Part shown: positions 1,384 to 33,008 of the stretch, one piece after another | Layout of the letters: each line of letters opens with the position of its first letter | Position numbering within the stretch: the stretch's first letter is position 1 | Assembly (NCBI GenBank): GCA_016196285.1 | Contig: JACPXY010000019.1 | Coordinates: 1-33,008, forward strand | Source of the DNA: Candidatus Pacearchaeota archaeon | Lineage (GTDB): Archaea; Nanobdellota; Nanobdellia; Pacearchaeales; GW2011-AR1 | Reading direction: 5' to 3' | DNA length: 33,008 bases | Position numbers and translations under genes: made by a program | The notes under the pieces: generated by a model | Databases searched by the model: none | What the model was told of the DNA's origin: nothing | What the model saw: only the letters and a program-made list of their open reading frames with translations

Positions 1384-4300
1384 ATGTCAATCACAAAATT
1401 AACGGGAAAGAAAAAATCCACCTTCAATGGTGTCTTACCGATTCTATTGGTGAGCATCATGCTTATTGCTTCCTTGATCGCACCTATCTCAGCTCAAGGT
1501 GCTGATACAACTAATCCTACTATCTCTATTACACATCCTGCTGACGGCGCAACACTCTCAGGAGAGGACTTTGTCTCTGCTGACGCTTCTGATAACGTAG
1601 CTATAACAAAAGTTACATTCACTTTGGATGGAAGCCAGAGTGTTGATGACACCGAAGCCCCTTATTCTCTTCCTCTCTTTACAACTCTTATGTCTGACGG
1701 AGCACATAATATTGTTGCAGTTGCATCTGATTCATCTGGAAACACTGCAAGCGACTCTGTTTCGTTTACTGTAAATAATTCAGCAGGAAGCGGAGACACA
1801 ACCGCTCCTTCTGTATCTATTACAAGTCCTGCAAATGGTGCAAGTGTATCTGGAACTATTAATGTAAATGCTGATGCAAGCGACAATGTCGCAGTAGCTA
1901 ATGTGCAATTTAAAGTAGATGGAAATAACATCGGCAGTGCCGACACTTCATCCCCGTATTCTGCAAGCCTGGATACAAGTACTCTCTCAAATGGAAACCA
2001 TGTACTCACTGCTGTTGCAGCTGATTCATCTGGAAACACTGCAACTTCTACATCTATCAGTATTACAGTCAATAATGGAGGAGGAAATGTAAGCGATACT
2101 ACAGATCCTAGTGTTTTTGTTACGAATCCTACTAACGGCGCCACAGTAAGCGGAACAATTCCTATTACTGCGATTGCAAGCGATAATACAGGTGTTGTTG
2201 GAGTGACATTTGTGCTTGATGGGAATAATGCAGGAGCAATTGATGATACAACTGCTCCTTATGAAACTTCTCTAGACAGCACTTTAGTTGCTGATGGAAG
2301 CCATAGTATTTCTGCGACTGCACGTGATTCTGCTGGAAATACAGCGAGCCATACTATATTCTTTAATGTGAATAATGCTGGAGGGAGCGGAGACACGACA
2401 GCTCCTGCTGTTTTAATAACACAACCTTTCAACAATTCATTCATCTATGGTAGTTCATATGAAATTCAGGCAGATGCAAGCGATAATGTTGCCGTAACAA
2501 AAGTTACATTCACTTTGGATGGAAGCCAGAGTGTTGATGACACAACATCTCCTTATGGAACAATTATCCAGCCGTCTGCTCTTTCGGAAGGACAACATAC
2601 TCTATCTGCTACAGCATTTGATGCAGCAGGAAATACAGCGGTATATTCAATTGTATTTAATATAGACAATGATGGAAGCCAAGGACCTCCTCCAATACCA
2701 GCTCAAACTCCTCCTGCTGTGACTATAATTGATCCTCAAGCAACAACTTACACTTCATATCCAATACCTTTCAGGTTCAGCATCAACGAAGCAGGAGATT
2801 GTTCATATTTGCTTGACAACAATTTCTCAAATCAGTATCCAATGACTAAAACAGACGCAAGCAGGACTGAATTCACTGCGCAAAGATCTGACTTGGCTAA
2901 TGGAAATTATCATGTAGCTGCTATTTGTACTGACTTGGTAGGAAACGCGAACTTCTCAGAAGGGAGAGACTTTACAGTTAATGTAGGAAGCGGCGGAGAT
3001 ACTACAAATCCATCAGTTAGTATAACCTCTCCGAGTAATGGAGCAAGTGTATCCGGGACAATTAATGTAAATGCAGATGCAAGCGACAATGTGGCGGTAG
3101 CTAATGTTCAATTCAAAGTTGATGGAAATAACATCGGCAGTGCTGACACAAGCTCCCCATATTCTGCAAGCTTAGATACAAGCACATTATCTAATGGTAA
3201 TCATGTATTGACTGCTGTTGCAGCTGATTCATCTGGAAACACTGCAACTTCTGCATCTATTAGTATTACGGTCAATAATGGAGCTGGCGGAGACACAACT
3301 AATCCTAGTGTATCAATTACAAGTCCTACTAATGGTGCTACAGTAAGCGGAACTATCGCTGTATCTGCTACTGCAAGCGACAATGTAGGAGTTACTGGAG
3401 TGACATTCGTGCTTGATGGGAACACTGCTGGCGGGATTGACGATACTGCTGCACCATATGAAACTTCATTGGACAGCACACTAATCGCTGATGGTACACA
3501 TACATTATCTGCGACTGCAAGAGATGCAGCTGGAAACACACAGACTGCCAGTGTTACCTTTACAGTTAATAATGCAGGCGGAGGAAATGCAACTGATACT
3601 ATTGCTCCAGCAGTTTCTATTACTTCACCATCCCATTGGTCTACGGTGAGCGGAACTATCGCTGTATCTGCTACTGCAAGCGACAATGTAGGAGTTACTG
3701 GAGTGACATTCGTGCTTGATGGGAATAATGCAGGAGCAATTGATGATACAACTGCTCCTTATGGAACATCACTCGATACAACTCTGATTACAGATGGTAC
3801 ACATACATTATCTGCGATTGCAAGAGATGCAGCTGGAAACACTGCAAGCGATGTGATAAACTTCATCGTAAACAATGCTGGTGGAAATGCAACTGATACT
3901 ACACCTCCTGCAATTACTGTATTCTCACCTGAGAATAAGACCTACAATACTAGTACTATTGTGGTGAACTTCAGCGCAAGCGATTCAAGCGGAATATCCT
4001 CATTGAGCTTCATGAATGATACAGGCATAACTGAATATACCGGTGCAACAACACAGACAGCTTCTGAAGGAAGCCATACATGGACATTTATTGCAAGAGA
4101 TAATTTAGGGAATGAAGCACACCAGAATGTAACCTTTGCAATTAATCTGACTGCTCCAGGAGAAGAGACAAATGAGACTATCCCTGGCAATGTCACTTGC
4201 AGTGATACAAACATGACGATAAGTCAATACAAGTTTGTCTACTTTGTGTGCCCTACATTGGAATCAGGAGCAGTTGTTGACAGGAATTATATTGAAGTCA

Positions 4301-6045
4301 ACACAACTACTATTCCTGCAGGCATAGGAAACATAACTATCAGACTATACAATGCATCGCACCAGCTCATAAGTGAAGATACTGCTGGCACATATTACGG
4401 TTTGTACAAGAATTACAGCGGTCTGCCTTATGGCTTGTACTTCTATAATGCGAGCATTGATGGCGAGAATCTTAATATGTCTTACTTTGCAACTGAGACG
4501 AGAAACATCACTCTTGCGAACCTGACTATCCCTGGCAATGGAACAATTATTCCCGGCAATGAGACGAATGGAACCTTGAATGATACTATTCCTCCAGCAC
4601 AAGTCACTGACCTGCATTCTGTTGCAGTATTTGAGAACAGTATTACATGGGCGTGGAACAATCCTAATAATACAGACTTTGCCCATACGAAAGTATACTT
4701 AGACGGAGAGTGGACTGCTTATACTACTCAGGAGATATTCACGGCAGGCAATCTCCTGCCTGGAACACTACACCTTATCGCACTGCGGACTGTAGACACG
4801 AACGGTAATGTGAACACTGATACAGTATTTCACATAGAGAGAACTCTTGGAGGAGATCTCTTCGCGAACTTGACTATCCCAAGTTTATCAATCAGCGGAC
4901 TTAACGAGACTATCGCATATCCTATTGTGACTACTTTCTCAGGAAATGGATGCCCTAACGAGAATGTTACATGCAGGCTTTACCTTGATGGTATTCTCGT
5001 AAGCAATCCGCATACGACTATCTTGTCTCCTGGTGAGCATACAGTTATCTTCCTAACTAATGGAGATGCACAGTATGCTCCTGCATTGGCAGTGAGAGAC
5101 GTTACTGTAATTGCTAACTCCAACAGCCAGTTTGCTTCAGGAACAACAATCGTGCTTACCAATGGAACCAAAGAAGTAATATTCACCGATAATTCTGGCA
5201 CTGAGCAGATTATTATCCGCACGACCTCGGATACAGAAGAGATTATCCTGAATCTTGCTCTGTTGCTTGAGGATGATTCTGTGACTCTGCCTTCAAACTT
5301 GACTCTTATCCGAGAGAGCGCAAGCAAAGATTATCGTGTCTTCATACCTGCAGGAACTAAGATGAGCGCAGAGGGCTGGGATGGCACATTTATCATGCCA
5401 GCAGTTCGTGATGGCTCTTCTTTCAGCGTTCCTTCGGGAACTGTTGATGTTGTCTTGACCATGGGCATTGATGGAGAGCTTACATTCTCACAGCCAGTGC
5501 AAGTAGTACTCTCTGGCATGGCTGGCAAGAGTGCTGCGTGGAGTTCAGGAAGCAGTACTGCAACACCAATCACTGCTGTATGCAACAGCGATAGCACACC
5601 AACGAATATTGATTCAGTGAATATACGGGAGTGTGCTGTAAGCTCAGGGAGCGACCTTGTGATATGGACTTACCATTTCACTGACTTTGGTGCATATACA
5701 CCAGCCTCTTCGAGCGCTTCCTCAGAAGATACTTCAGGCAGTTCTGACAGTTCAGGGAGTTCAGGAAGCGGCGGCAGAATCGTCACCTCATCTGCTGTAA
5801 CTACCAGTGCTTCAGATTCTACTCAGACCACTCCTTCTGAGAGCAGTACTGAAGGTACATCAGCATCTGATTCAAGCGACTCTTCTGATGCAGGAGATTC
5901 CGAAGAGCAGAGATCTCCAAGTATCACTGGAGCAGTAACTGGCACCTTCGGCAAGATTGGCGCCACTGTTGCCATCGTCTTCATGGTACTTGTAATCTTA
6001 GGACTGGCAATTGTCTCGGTCAGAAAATTGAGAAAGGAAAAGTAA
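1384..6045 (+). CDS. Large surface protein with nine Ig-like repeats and C-terminal membrane anchor
   Basis: A 1553-residue protein. Residues 1-38 form a signal peptide (basic start, hydrophobic core, cleavage near ISAQG). Nine Ig-like domains of about 100 residues follow, starting near residues 40, 138, 238, 337, 442, 539, 637, 738 and 838. Most carry the pattern DTT-P-SVSITSP-NGA-VSGT, ASDNV, LDG, D-AGNT, VNN, which is typical of bacterial Ig-like domain Big_7; repeats 5 and 9 are divergent. Next come an Asn-rich region with many N-x-T/S sequons (930-1065), a fibronectin-III-like domain (about 1070-1160), another beta domain, a domain ending WTYHFTDFGAYT (about 1270-1440), a Ser/Gly-rich linker, the motif SITGAVTG, one transmembrane helix and a basic tail RKLRKEK. 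It is very probably an anchored cell-surface adhesin or S-layer-associated protein that projects outward on the Ig stalk. The ligand is unknown. It is transcribed alone from its own TATA box. Confidence 0.85.
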   Translation: MSITKLTGKKKSTFNGVLPILLVSIMLIASLIAPISAQGADTTNPTISITHPADGATLSGEDFVSADASDNVAITKVTFTLDGSQSVDDTEAPYSLPLFTTLMSDGAHNIVAVASDSSGNTASDSVSFTVNNSAGSGDTTAPSVSITSPANGASVSGTINVNADASDNVAVANVQFKVDGNNIGSADTSSPYSASLDTSTLSNGNHVLTAVAADSSGNTATSTSISITVNNGGGNVSDTTDPSVFVTNPTNGATVSGTIPITAIASDNTGVVGVTFVLDGNNAGAIDDTTAPYETSLDSTLVADGSHSISATARDSAGNTASHTIFFNVNNAGGSGDTTAPAVLITQPFNNSFIYGSSYEIQADASDNVAVTKVTFTLDGSQSVDDTTSPYGTIIQPSALSEGQHTLSATAFDAAGNTAVYSIVFNIDNDGSQGPPPIPAQTPPAVTIIDPQATTYTSYPIPFRFSINEAGDCSYLLDNNFSNQYPMTKTDASRTEFTAQRSDLANGNYHVAAICTDLVGNANFSEGRDFTVNVGSGGDTTNPSVSITSPSNGASVSGTINVNADASDNVAVANVQFKVDGNNIGSADTSSPYSASLDTSTLSNGNHVLTAVAADSSGNTATSASISITVNNGAGGDTTNPSVSITSPTNGATVSGTIAVSATASDNVGVTGVTFVLDGNTAGGIDDTAAPYETSLDSTLIADGTHTLSATARDAAGNTQTASVTFTVNNAGGGNATDTIAPAVSITSPSHWSTVSGTIAVSATASDNVGVTGVTFVLDGNNAGAIDDTTAPYGTSLDTTLITDGTHTLSAIARDAAGNTASDVINFIVNNAGGNATDTTPPAITVFSPENKTYNTSTIVVNFSASDSSGISSLSFMNDTGITEYTGATTQTASEGSHTWTFIARDNLGNEAHQNVTFAINLTAPGEETNETIPGNVTCSDTNMTISQYKFVYFVCPTLESGAVVDRNYIEVNTTTIPAGIGNITIRLYNASHQLISEDTAGTYYGLYKNYSGLPYGLYFYNASIDGENLNMSYFATETRNITLANLTIPGNGTIIPGNETNGTLNDTIPPAQVTDLHSVAVFENSITWAWNNPNNTDFAHTKVYLDGEWTAYTTQEIFTAGNLLPGTLHLIALRTVDTNGNVNTDTVFHIERTLGGDLFANLTIPSLSISGLNETIAYPIVTTFSGNGCPNENVTCRLYLDGILVSNPHTTILSPGEHTVIFLTNGDAQYAPALAVRDVTVIANSNSQFASGTTIVLTNGTKEVIFTDNSGTEQIIIRTTSDTEEIILNLALLLEDDSVTLPSNLTLIRESASKDYRVFIPAGTKMSAEGWDGTFIMPAVRDGSSFSVPSGTVDVVLTMGIDGELTFSQPVQVVLSGMAGKSAAWSSGSSTATPITAVCNSDSTPTNIDSVNIRECAVSSGSDLVIWTYHFTDFGAYTPASSSASSEDTSGSSDSSGSSGSGGRIVTSSAVTTSASDSTQTTPSESSTEGTSASDSSDSSDAGDSEEQRSPSITGAVTGTFGKIGATVAIVFMVLVILGLAIVSVRKLRKEK
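1501..4160 (+). repeat. Tandem Ig-like repeats, about 300 bp each, with mosaic identity
   Basis: Nine in-frame units of about 300 bp. Identity between units is patchy at the DNA level. Unit 8 shares 77 exact bases with unit 7 (3649-3725 and 3346-3422), then 52 exact bases with unit 3 (3712-3763 and 2212-2263). Units 1 and 4 share about 49 exact bases (1604-1652 and 2495-2543). Units 2 and 6 encode nearly the same protein with many silent differences. Confidence 0.85.
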
Positions 6046-26095: not shown

Positions 26096-28048
<1,953 letters not shown>

Positions 28049-28052
<4 letters not shown>

Positions 28053-28321
28053 GATATCACCTTCGCTACAATGTCTTTGTAATCAAGAATCAGATGCTTC
28101 TCGCCATTAAGCTCGAATTCCTCGCTGGAAAAGCCGGTATAGAGAATATGGTCTCCTACTGCAAGAGGAAGGGGCTTTCCATCTTTCTCTCCGCATGCTA
28201 CGATAATGCCTTCTTTCTTCTCCTGACTGCCTTTCGGGAGAATCAGGCCTGACTTGGTTTTCTCTTCTGCCTGCTTGAGCTGCTTGATAAGCACGCGTTC
28301 ACCTAAAGGTATAATGTTCAT
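28049..28321 (-). CDS. groES: Co-chaperonin GroES
   Basis: A 90-residue protein of normal size. Seen: IIPLGERVLIKQLKQAEEKT, then KSGLILPKGSQEKKEGIIVA, the GroEL-contacting mobile loop being around residues 15-32, then GDHILYTGFSSEEFELNGEK and LDYKDIVAKVI at the end. It caps GroEL. First gene of the three-gene operon; a TATA box lies about 39 bp upstream, leaving a short leader. Confidence 0.95.
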
Positions 28322-30362: not shown

Positions 30363-30448
30363 CAGAAAAACATCATCTCTGCCATCACTTTGACGTGTGA
30401 GGAAAAGTTTATATAGTGTTACCCCTGGCAGGTTATTATATTTATACC

Positions 30449-32746
30449 ATGCCTACACCAGAAGAATACATCGCACGAGTGAAGACCGGTCAGGACTTGC
30501 TTGACTTAAGAGTAATTCCCAAAGATTCCTCGACGCATCTTGCGCTGATTGCTCGTGAGCGGTTGCAGAGACTGCGTGAGAAGATTGATTCTCAGATTAC
30601 TGATGATGATCTTGGAGCATGGGTGCCTGCTGTAAAGAAGATAGGGAAAGAGTATACTGGGGAAGTGAGTGATCCTGAAATTATCTTGAGATTAGGGCAG
30701 CCAGGCATGCGTGTTGAAGGGAGAGGGGTGCATGATGGGCGCGACTTTAAAGGACTGGCAGGAATTCTTAGAGGCACGAAAAAGAATGAGATACTTGTTG
30801 AGTTCGACCGTCCGATAGCGGGAGGCCATGATTGTGACGGCCTGGCAAAGAAAGGATATGGTTTTAGAATGGCTCCTGAAAAAATGGCGATTATGCTTGC
30901 TCCAGGGCAGACACTTGTTGATGCCAAAGAGTATGCATTAGGAAAGGATATTGTTGCGCATGAGCATATCGGCCATATCGTGCGTGTTGCCACTGATTTG
31001 CCTGCAATCCGTGCATGGGACAACGACGATACTGGGGTACAACTGGCACTAAAGTCAGGCACATTTGGCAGGCTCTATAATTGCCAAACTAGCAAGGGGT
31101 CAGGTAAAAGAGTCTTAACAGTCAAGTTTGATGACCCTGTCAATAATAAGCAGATATATCAATTCCATCTTGAGACGATTGCAGACTGCTTCCAGGTCTC
31201 TTCACTTGGACAGCTTAAGCCGCATAGTCGAGAAGAATTGGTCCGAGATGAGACTTTTTTCGCGTTCTTTCCAAGCACAGTCATTGCAACAAAGCGCGCG
31301 GAGCGTGCATTAGTTGCCTTGCTGATGGGCAAGGATAAGGTTTTCTATGGCCCTCCAGGAGGCGGCAAGTCCCAGATAGCAAGGGATATCACAGATATTG
31401 CAAAACTACAAGGTGTTGGCTTTGTGGTAGAAGGATGCAAAGCAAACTGCAACCCCTTCAGTCTATTTGATGAATCATTTGCACGAGTTGTTCCTCCATG
31501 CCCTGAATGCATGATACATCACAGTCCTGATTTCAGAACCACTGGGCGATTTACCCGACCAAAGCCAGAAGATGTGAAAGTGATTGTTACTAATTATGGT
31601 GATGGCAAAGGAATTGAATTCTTGCAAGGAAAGGTAGCCATACAAGCTATGCATCTTATTGGCTATAAGCTTCCTACTATTCCTGGAGATACATCTGGAA
31701 CTGTTCAACCTGATTTACACGATGATTCAAATCCAGAAGGATTCATGGCAGGCGCATTGGTGCGAACTAATAACGGAGTGTTACATGCAGATGAGATGGA
31801 CAAATGGCGGCAGCAGGCACTTGATGTTTTATTGGAGTCCTTGAACAGCGGGAGGGTGAAACCTGATGAGTTGAGATACGCGTATCCTGCGCACAGCCTC
31901 GTTGTCGGCACTGCGAATGACCATACAAAGTTCTCTGGCGCCTTGAATGACCGTATGGCTCTGCTTGCGATACGGTATCCGGGCACAGTGTCTGATCGAC
32001 ATAGAATCACGAGAAGGGCGTACCATGGCGAGGTCACTCCTGCCGAGGAGGTTCCGATTGGCGATACGCATACGATGCAGAATGAGATTCTCCGCAGAAT
32101 ACCTATGGCAGTCACATTGGAGAAAGCTGTCGATGCGTTCTACATGAAGTTTGAAAATGAGTTCACTGGAGCAGGGAAGAACGAAATTTCTGCCAGCAAC
32201 CGCTCTAAGATAGATGCATTGAATGCTGCGCGCGCTTCATTGCTTCTTGAACGTACCTTCTTCAAAGATGCTCCTCTCATCACTGCTCCGAAGCATGCCA
32301 TGTTCGGCATTCAGTTTGCTGTATGCGGACGCGTGCAGAAGCAGAACCGCGAAGAAGAACAGAAAGCGAAGCAAGAGTTAGTTGATTATATTCATGAGAA
32401 TCTACCACCAATCTTAAAACAGGAGGAAAATACATGGTGGTGCGAGACGTATCGGCATGCAGGATTTCGTGATAAACAAGTTCCTGGCACCATTGATTAT
32501 TTTGTTAGTGAGATGAAGCTGTACGAGACTGCTATCGGGCAGGCAGCTACTGTATTTGAGCTTATTAAGAGGGGACGCGATCCTGCTGCCTCTGTTCACG
32601 ATAAGAAAGCACGTATAACTTATCCTTTCATGGACTACCTCTTCAAAGAACAGCCGCGCATGGCTTCTTTTACCAATGACGAGGTAAGCGAGCTTATCAA
32701 GTACTTCTTACAGAGCCGTGAGAACACTATCTGTACTATAGAGTAG
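30449..32746 (+). CDS. MoxR/chelatase-type AAA+ ATPase with N-terminal SH3-like domains
   Basis: A 765-residue protein from ATG 30449; an in-frame GTG at 30416 lies too near the TATA box. N-terminal helices (1-65) are followed by two small beta domains: GMRVEGRGVHDGRDFKGLAG with a GGHDCDGLAKKGYGF motif (about 86-147), recalling HERC2/Mind-bomb-type SH3-like modules, and a second one at about 170-250 (HIVRVATDL, TVKFDDP). AAA+ core: Walker A GPPGGGKS (301-308), Walker B in VLHADEMDK (444-452), sensor 1 in VVGTANDHTKFSG (485-497) and an Arg in ALNDRM. Four Cys (330, 334, and PPCPEC 351/354) could bind zinc inside the AAA domain. The long helical C-terminal part is unassigned. Members of this class remodel proteins with a partner, often a VWA protein. 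The next gene follows by 8 bp. Confidence 0.8.
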   Translation: MPTPEEYIARVKTGQDLLDLRVIPKDSSTHLALIARERLQRLREKIDSQITDDDLGAWVPAVKKIGKEYTGEVSDPEIILRLGQPGMRVEGRGVHDGRDFKGLAGILRGTKKNEILVEFDRPIAGGHDCDGLAKKGYGFRMAPEKMAIMLAPGQTLVDAKEYALGKDIVAHEHIGHIVRVATDLPAIRAWDNDDTGVQLALKSGTFGRLYNCQTSKGSGKRVLTVKFDDPVNNKQIYQFHLETIADCFQVSSLGQLKPHSREELVRDETFFAFFPSTVIATKRAERALVALLMGKDKVFYGPPGGGKSQIARDITDIAKLQGVGFVVEGCKANCNPFSLFDESFARVVPPCPECMIHHSPDFRTTGRFTRPKPEDVKVIVTNYGDGKGIEFLQGKVAIQAMHLIGYKLPTIPGDTSGTVQPDLHDDSNPEGFMAGALVRTNNGVLHADEMDKWRQQALDVLLESLNSGRVKPDELRYAYPAHSLVVGTANDHTKFSGALNDRMALLAIRYPGTVSDRHRITRRAYHGEVTPAEEVPIGDTHTMQNEILRRIPMAVTLEKAVDAFYMKFENEFTGAGKNEISASNRSKIDALNAARASLLLERTFFKDAPLITAPKHAMFGIQFAVCGRVQKQNREEEQKAKQELVDYIHENLPPILKQEENTWWCETYRHAGFRDKQVPGTIDYFVSEMKLYETAIGQAATVFELIKRGRDPAASVHDKKARITYPFMDYLFKEQPRMASFTNDEVSELIKYFLQSRENTICTIE

Positions 32747-32754
32747 GAGTGCTT

Positions 32755-33008
32755 ATGCCTGAGATTCAAGATTACCGGCACGCTGACTGCAACCTCTTCA
32801 GGACTCCTCCTTTAGATTTCAGTAAACTTGACTCGACACTCATCGATACTCTTGTTTCATCATGGAAAAATGGATATACTGCGGATAACGCCTTGCAAAA
32901 GGTAGTGGAGGATACTTCTCTTGTCAGAGAATTAACTAAACAAGTTGCTGAACAGCTGACCTTCCAGAGAAGAACTGAACTTGAGCAGCTAAAGAGTGAG
33001 GAAAAAGC
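32755..33008 (+). CDS. Partner gene of the AAA+ ATPase (cut by window end)
   Basis: Begins at ATG 32755 with TAGGAG as Shine-Dalgarno-like site, 8 bp after the ATPase gene, so the two form an operon. The visible 84 residues start MPEIQDYRHADCNLFRTPPL and become strongly helical and charged (VVEDTSLVRELTKQVAEQL, FQRRTELEQLKSEEK). No domain can be named yet. By analogy with MoxR-type operons the remainder may carry a VWA domain; this is inference. Confidence 0.7.
   Translation, partial: MPEIQDYRHADCNLFRTPPLDFSKLDSTLIDTLVSSWKNGYTADNALQKVVEDTSLVRELTKQVAEQLTFQRRTELEQLKSEEK

Follow-up and report, generated by a model that had tools for sequence, protein, structure and literature searches.

At the 3' end of the 33,008-nt window (the whole stretch of DNA that was analysed) we identified two genes, A and B, that by homology and gene order open a seven-gene archaeal cassette encoding two AAA+ motors, a VWA protein and four proteins of no known kind. 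The initial annotation had described a locus of a motor and its partner; both are present, but the genes number seven rather than two. Its products probably form a machine of the chelatase/MoxR-VWA kind that uses ATP to remodel proteins and is equipped with a further AAA+ motor.

The genomes of DPANN archaea are very small, and most of these organisms are uncultured. Because their genomes are so small, a cassette that spans 10 kb and includes two AAA+ motors must be doing something costly as well as useful. To the chelatase/MoxR-VWA machines, the cassette adds a branch that is absent from the libraries and literature searched (in open-access papers, we found no description of an archaeal or DPANN AAA-VWA cassette). 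Genes D, E and G represent at least three conserved protein families matching nothing in the libraries searched, and the cassette provides subunits open to biochemical testing from mostly uncultured organisms.

Gene A and its product

The window corresponds to contig C38 of an 864-kb genome in 72 contigs, and the window end coincides with the contig end. The open reading frame of gene A (30416-32746, forward strand) has two candidate starts, GTG 30416 and ATG 30449. The true start is very likely the ATG, because homologues align from the Met at this position and the GTG abuts a TATA-like box (30408-30415). The box lies ~34 nt 5' of the ATG, a spacing from which we expect a near-leaderless archaeal mRNA beginning just upstream of the start codon (Table 1).

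Table 1. Coordinates in the window of genes A and B and of features of gene A (residue numbers are those of the A protein)
Feature	Position	Strand	Basis
Putative archaeal-type promoter: BRE-like GAAAAG, then TATA box TTTATATA	30402..30415	+	Sequence reading; archaeal promoter consensus
Gene A, 765-aa chelatase-type AAA+ ATPase	30449..32746	+	Sequence, homologue alignment
First SH3-like barrel, residues 85-150, holds GGHDC-G-GYG	30701..30898	+	AlphaFold model, Foldseek, conservation
Second SH3-like barrel, residues 155-251	30911..31201	+	AlphaFold model, Foldseek
Walker A GPPGGGKS, residues 301-308	31349..31372	+	Motif, homologue alignment
Four-cysteine insert C330-x3-C334-x16-C351-x2-C354	31436..31510	+	Alignment; zinc predicted
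Walker B VLHADE, residues 444-449	31778..31795	+	Homologue alignment
Sensor-1 Asn490, invariant	31916..31918	+	Homologue alignment (n=11)
Arg502, invariant, candidate arginine finger	31952..31954	+	Alignment; role as in chelatase/MoxR AAA+ proteins
C-terminal helical region, residues 555-757	32111..32719	+	AlphaFold model
Gene B, helical/coiled-coil partner, first 84 codons, runs past contig end	32755..33008	+	Sequence, homologues

The product of gene A exceeds the cut-off of Pfam Mg_chelatase (34.1 bits against 20.3), and the AAA_PrkA, MCM and AAA models fall under theirs. G301, G304 and K307 of Walker A are invariant in the homologues (n=11), as is D501-R502, and Walker B has an acidic residue (D/E) at position 449 in 11/11. 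These residues and the profile score bear out the initial reading of A as a MoxR/chelatase-like motor. At position 448, the Walker B Asp gives way to Glu or Ser in some homologues, a point against the remodelling machine proposed above; the active site of A is apparently intact. The AAA motifs, the Mg_chelatase profile and the hhalign match to archaeal ChlI-like AAA proteins all place A in the chelatase/MoxR clade, as does its clustering with the gene of a VWA partner (C, MIDAS DxSGSM...DG).

A Cys-rich insert in the AAA core had been pointed out earlier. It is real, with C330, C334, C351 and C354 kept in 11/11 homologues, and is likely a structural zinc site. It is not special to A, however: four cysteines of archaeal ChlI-like ATPases align with those of A and are present in most of 23 sequences compared. 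Thus, the insert is inherited, and we rejected the idea that it is a new feature.

The AlphaFold model of A (mean pLDDT 72, built with nine sequences) has two groups of strands near the N-terminus, with pLDDT of about 66-90 over most of residues 88-251; the AAA core (residues 385-514) is modelled with low confidence. The best Foldseek matches of the two beta modules are tandem KOW (Spt5)/Tudor folds and the PARC CPH domain (TMt 0.71), with no match to the PDB at E<=0.001, and small phage proteins of similar fold also pair with them. The strands and matches support the two beta modules proposed earlier and an SH3-like fold for them. The barrels diverge fast (mean identity 28-29%, versus 52% for the AAA core). 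The GGHDC-G-GYG motif singled out in the initial annotation is present in this copy of A but is not recognisable in the homologues of G270, G372, G390, G504 and G505. Thus, it is not diagnostic. In another genome (G394, L037 7042-9450), part of a pyruvate-phosphate-dikinase-like protein resembles the first barrel of A (45% identity across 61 residues).

Two other loci in the window were noted. A 1553-aa protein of bacterial Ig-like repeats (1384-6045; Pfam Big_7, E 3e-117) is likely a surface protein. At 26096-28321, this DPANN genome has groEL- and groES-like genes of Group I (the bacterial type), recognised by eye, with a 119-aa gene of no known kind between them.

Organisation and distribution of the cassette

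As first described, a helical partner gene begins 8 nt after the gene A stop; complete homologues of B, judged from sequence, are helical/coiled-coil. The remainder of the cassette was identified on contig C20 of the same genome (locus L064), which holds the end of B (the last about 22 codons), then C, D, E, F and part of G. Its first bases, read on the minus strand, encode the conserved B C-terminus (LGKLWRMLNYEIW). We found no sequence overlap between the window end and C20, and we infer that the two contigs join from the B tail and the gene order. The order A-B-C-D-E-F-G occurs in four genomes (G270, G503, G505 and G411) and is permuted to D-E-F-G-A-B-C in G390; in the remaining carriers, pieces of the cassette are spread over separate contigs. 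B, C and F of G411 (L107 2894-13161; 354, 550 and 650 aa) are longer than in the other genomes. The pairing of A and B, whose absence would have told against the earlier reading, is conserved: B directly follows A in ten carriers, and the contig of the only other carrier, G372, breaks off within A. Wherever the contig continues, gene C comes after A-B. A VWA domain had been anticipated past the window end; it is there, but in the third gene and not in B.

The C protein combines a coiled coil with a VWA domain (Pfam VWA_2, E 2e-5, slightly under the cut-off). DxSGSM and T/S-D-G-x-P are kept in nearly all copies; the exact DxSGSM string is absent from the G372 copy. F is a classical AAA+ protein resembling Msp1/p97/TRIP13, with a single AAA match at residues 306-444 (Pfam AAA, E 3e-10). 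GxPGxGKT, MYVADAD, MDAN and SRLFDE are invariant in seven copies of F, leaving Walker A, Walker B and sensor-1 intact. D is helical; its AlphaFold model is of low confidence (mean pLDDT 64) and establishes no fold. It was rejected as TelA, as the genome holding it has no PF05816 match, and was not accepted as ESCRT-III-like (CHMP4B matches at E 0.015 over the coiled coil only, and the structure search returned generic coiled coils). For E and G, we identified no meaningful Pfam, PHROGs or PADLOC family and no convincing natural solved structure. Homology of E to G with one another was tested and not borne out.

The carriers of A are this genome and ten further DPANN archaea (Pacearchaeota/Woesearchaeota), 11 in all, and F is present in 11/11. 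Among the nearest 56 genomes, A occurs elsewhere only in G041. Full-length A was found in 5/378 genomes of the class and 5/371 of the phylum (this genome counted in both); the five in the class are also precisely those, out of 378, that have full-length F. Two degenerate motifs, scanned against 84,980 species genomes, matched only records titled Nanoarchaeota, Pacearchaeota, Woesearchaeota and, once, 'uncultured archaeon'.

Copies of A are ~42% identical irrespective of host kinship. In one same-genus pair, A is 42% identical, compared with 82% for RpoB and 73% for the ordinary ChlI-like AAA protein, and the two cassettes are flanked by different neighbours. Pairwise identities of A and C correlate with each other (r 0.82) and not with RpoB (r 0.03 for A and 0.16 for C). 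Thus, A and C evolve as a unit, and by these comparisons the cassette does not track host phylogeny. Transfer between lineages or very rapid divergence would both give this incongruence. In the trees of A and of C, most inner branches are weak, so we claim no specific transfers; G000-G503 and G270-G476 do pair as they do for RpoB.

Divergent loci with E/F/G-like genes, or F alone, occur without A, B and C (G281, G318, G379 and others). The motors A and F may therefore belong to modules that can be separated. By eye, such loci often adjoin lipoprotein-like or LemA/TPM-like genes, a hint towards the cell envelope. The divergent E/F/G-like locus of G281 (L067 7422-18740) has about nine lipoprotein-like paralogs alongside, with JAB/MPN-like and ThiF/E1-like genes (by eye) on the opposite strand.

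Tandem paralog arrays were observed near two cassettes. On G390 contig C30 (L097 1-17000, L035 1-2408), about 30 small paralogs, all in one orientation, lie downstream of the cassette at a distance of a few kb; of these, two were tested and weakly match the Pfam pseudomurein-binding repeat, below the cut-off (E 2e-4 and 6e-3). Adjoining the cassette on G270 contig C34 (L033 12627-18908, L095 1-7328) is an array with one member weakly matching PI3/PI4-kinase; a PNP_UDP_1/DUF6909 protein and a trio of related short proteins are encoded there too. Further arrays of short-protein paralogs occur on G270 contig C7 (L080 2328-5328, 12936-14433), far from any cassette, and are therefore a general feature of that genome. 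With arrays also on such background contigs, and none at L045 or L065, we draw no firm link between them and the cassette.

Possible functions of the cassette

In the protein-remodelling machine that we favour, which is modelled on MoxR-VWA pairs (PMC7159879), A would assemble as a hexamer, and the MIDAS of C would capture a peptide of the client protein and dock it on A, with B as a tether. ATP hydrolysis would then alter the conformation or assembly state of the client, which the fast-changing SH3-like barrels of A may select. F would take apart or recycle a complex made of D, E and G, which would supply the body or the client of the machine. The likeliest role of the cassette is to assemble or maintain this dedicated D/E/G complex.

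A system of biological conflict (defence or inter-microbial), with the AAA-VWA pair both setting a threshold and releasing an effector (the scheme put forward for MoxR-vWA ternary systems; PMC7159879), is unlikely, though several observations agree with it. The cassette is patchy (about 1% of sampled genomes) and independent of host relationship, same-genus copies are just 42% identical and sit among unlike neighbours, the barrels of A evolve fast relative to its AAA core, and a pair of motors is also found in the FtsH ternary systems (PMC7159879). However, we identified no recognisable effector, and the core composition is constant rather than effector-swapping. Placement in defence islands, which the initial annotation proposed to check, finds no support: the neighbours resemble housekeeping genes (EF-2, enolase, LeuRS, CoaBC, ABC transporter, groEL), and PADLOC gave no meaningful match for A or C-G (a weak P-loop match of A, E 0.04, and only coiled-coil and TRIP13-like AAA similarity for C-G).

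The horizontal-looking distribution would also be expected of genes from a mobile element, such as an archaeal virus integrated in the genome. MoxR-VWA proteins have viral precedents in the pair of Acidianus two-tailed virus and CobST of archaeal tailed viruses (PMC7159879, PMC8651126), and F matches PHROG 3757 (a family of no known function, E 3e-10). Such an origin is nonetheless very improbable, given that A found no relative in viral contigs (IMG/VR), phage or plasmid collections and F none in IMG/VR or phage collections, that no viral hallmark lies beside the cassette, and that the loci sit among differing chromosomal genes. Insertion of Mg or Co into a tetrapyrrole, as by a metal chelatase, is hardly credible. 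It would fit the Mg_chelatase score of A and the VWA domain of C, but no carrier has CobN: a CobN/BchH subunit was found in 0/11 carriers, as against five positive control genomes (several carriers are incomplete, so that a single absence says little, but 0/11 does carry weight). Moreover, A reaches 21.5 and 24.8 bits against TIGR02030 and TIGR02442, where the equivalog cut-offs are 467 and 779. The remodelling machine stays our preferred reading. A bolder version, possible but doubtful, is a DPANN-specific two-motor system that moves horizontally and works as a new type of apparatus for conflict or for surface assembly, in which variable SH3-like barrels would sense the client.

Comparison with known AAA-VWA systems

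RavA-ViaA follows the same AAA-VWA logic, with low sequence similarity (hhalign probabilities of 15 and 29), and RavA ranks far behind YeaG as a relative of A. The MoxR-vWA-FtsH ternary systems likewise combine a MoxR-clade ATPase, a VWA protein and a second, classical AAA+ protein in each cluster (PMC7159879). Their third component has two FtsH-type AAA domains, the first inactive, and the MoxR P-loop is often GXXXTAKS (PMC7159879). In contrast, F has one AAA domain and not an FtsH-type doublet, the P-loop of A is GPPGGGKS, the MIDAS of C is mostly intact, and the cassette was found in DPANN archaea only.

PrkA/YeaG is closer. The AAA core of E. coli YeaG aligns with A from Walker A through the arginine finger (probability 94, E 1e-7, second-ranked), with a similar motif pair (CNPFSLF against NDHPFCLF), and PrkA/YeaG genes cluster with a VWA protein (YeaH, DUF444). 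However, AAA_PrkA scores 20.0 bits on A, below the gathering score of 25, and the C-terminal kinase domain of PrkA was not found in A (no model match at E<=1; the YeaG alignment covers the AAA core only). YeaH and C share general VWA-level similarity alone (probability 28). Thus, the AAA cores are related, and we rejected A as a PrkA serine kinase.

The top-ranked profile is that of the archaeal ChlI-like ATPases (about 335 aa; probability 99.7, E 1e-26 for the AAA core). Their genes are common in the same class, although an ordinary ChlI-like ATPase was not detected in 6/11 carriers, including this genome. Many are followed by a VWA gene whose product is distantly like C (probability 93.8, E 2e-7). 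These simple two-gene pairs lack the SH3-like barrels and the long C-terminus of A, and by sequence A and C look like an elaborated form of this common archaeal AAA-VWA pair.
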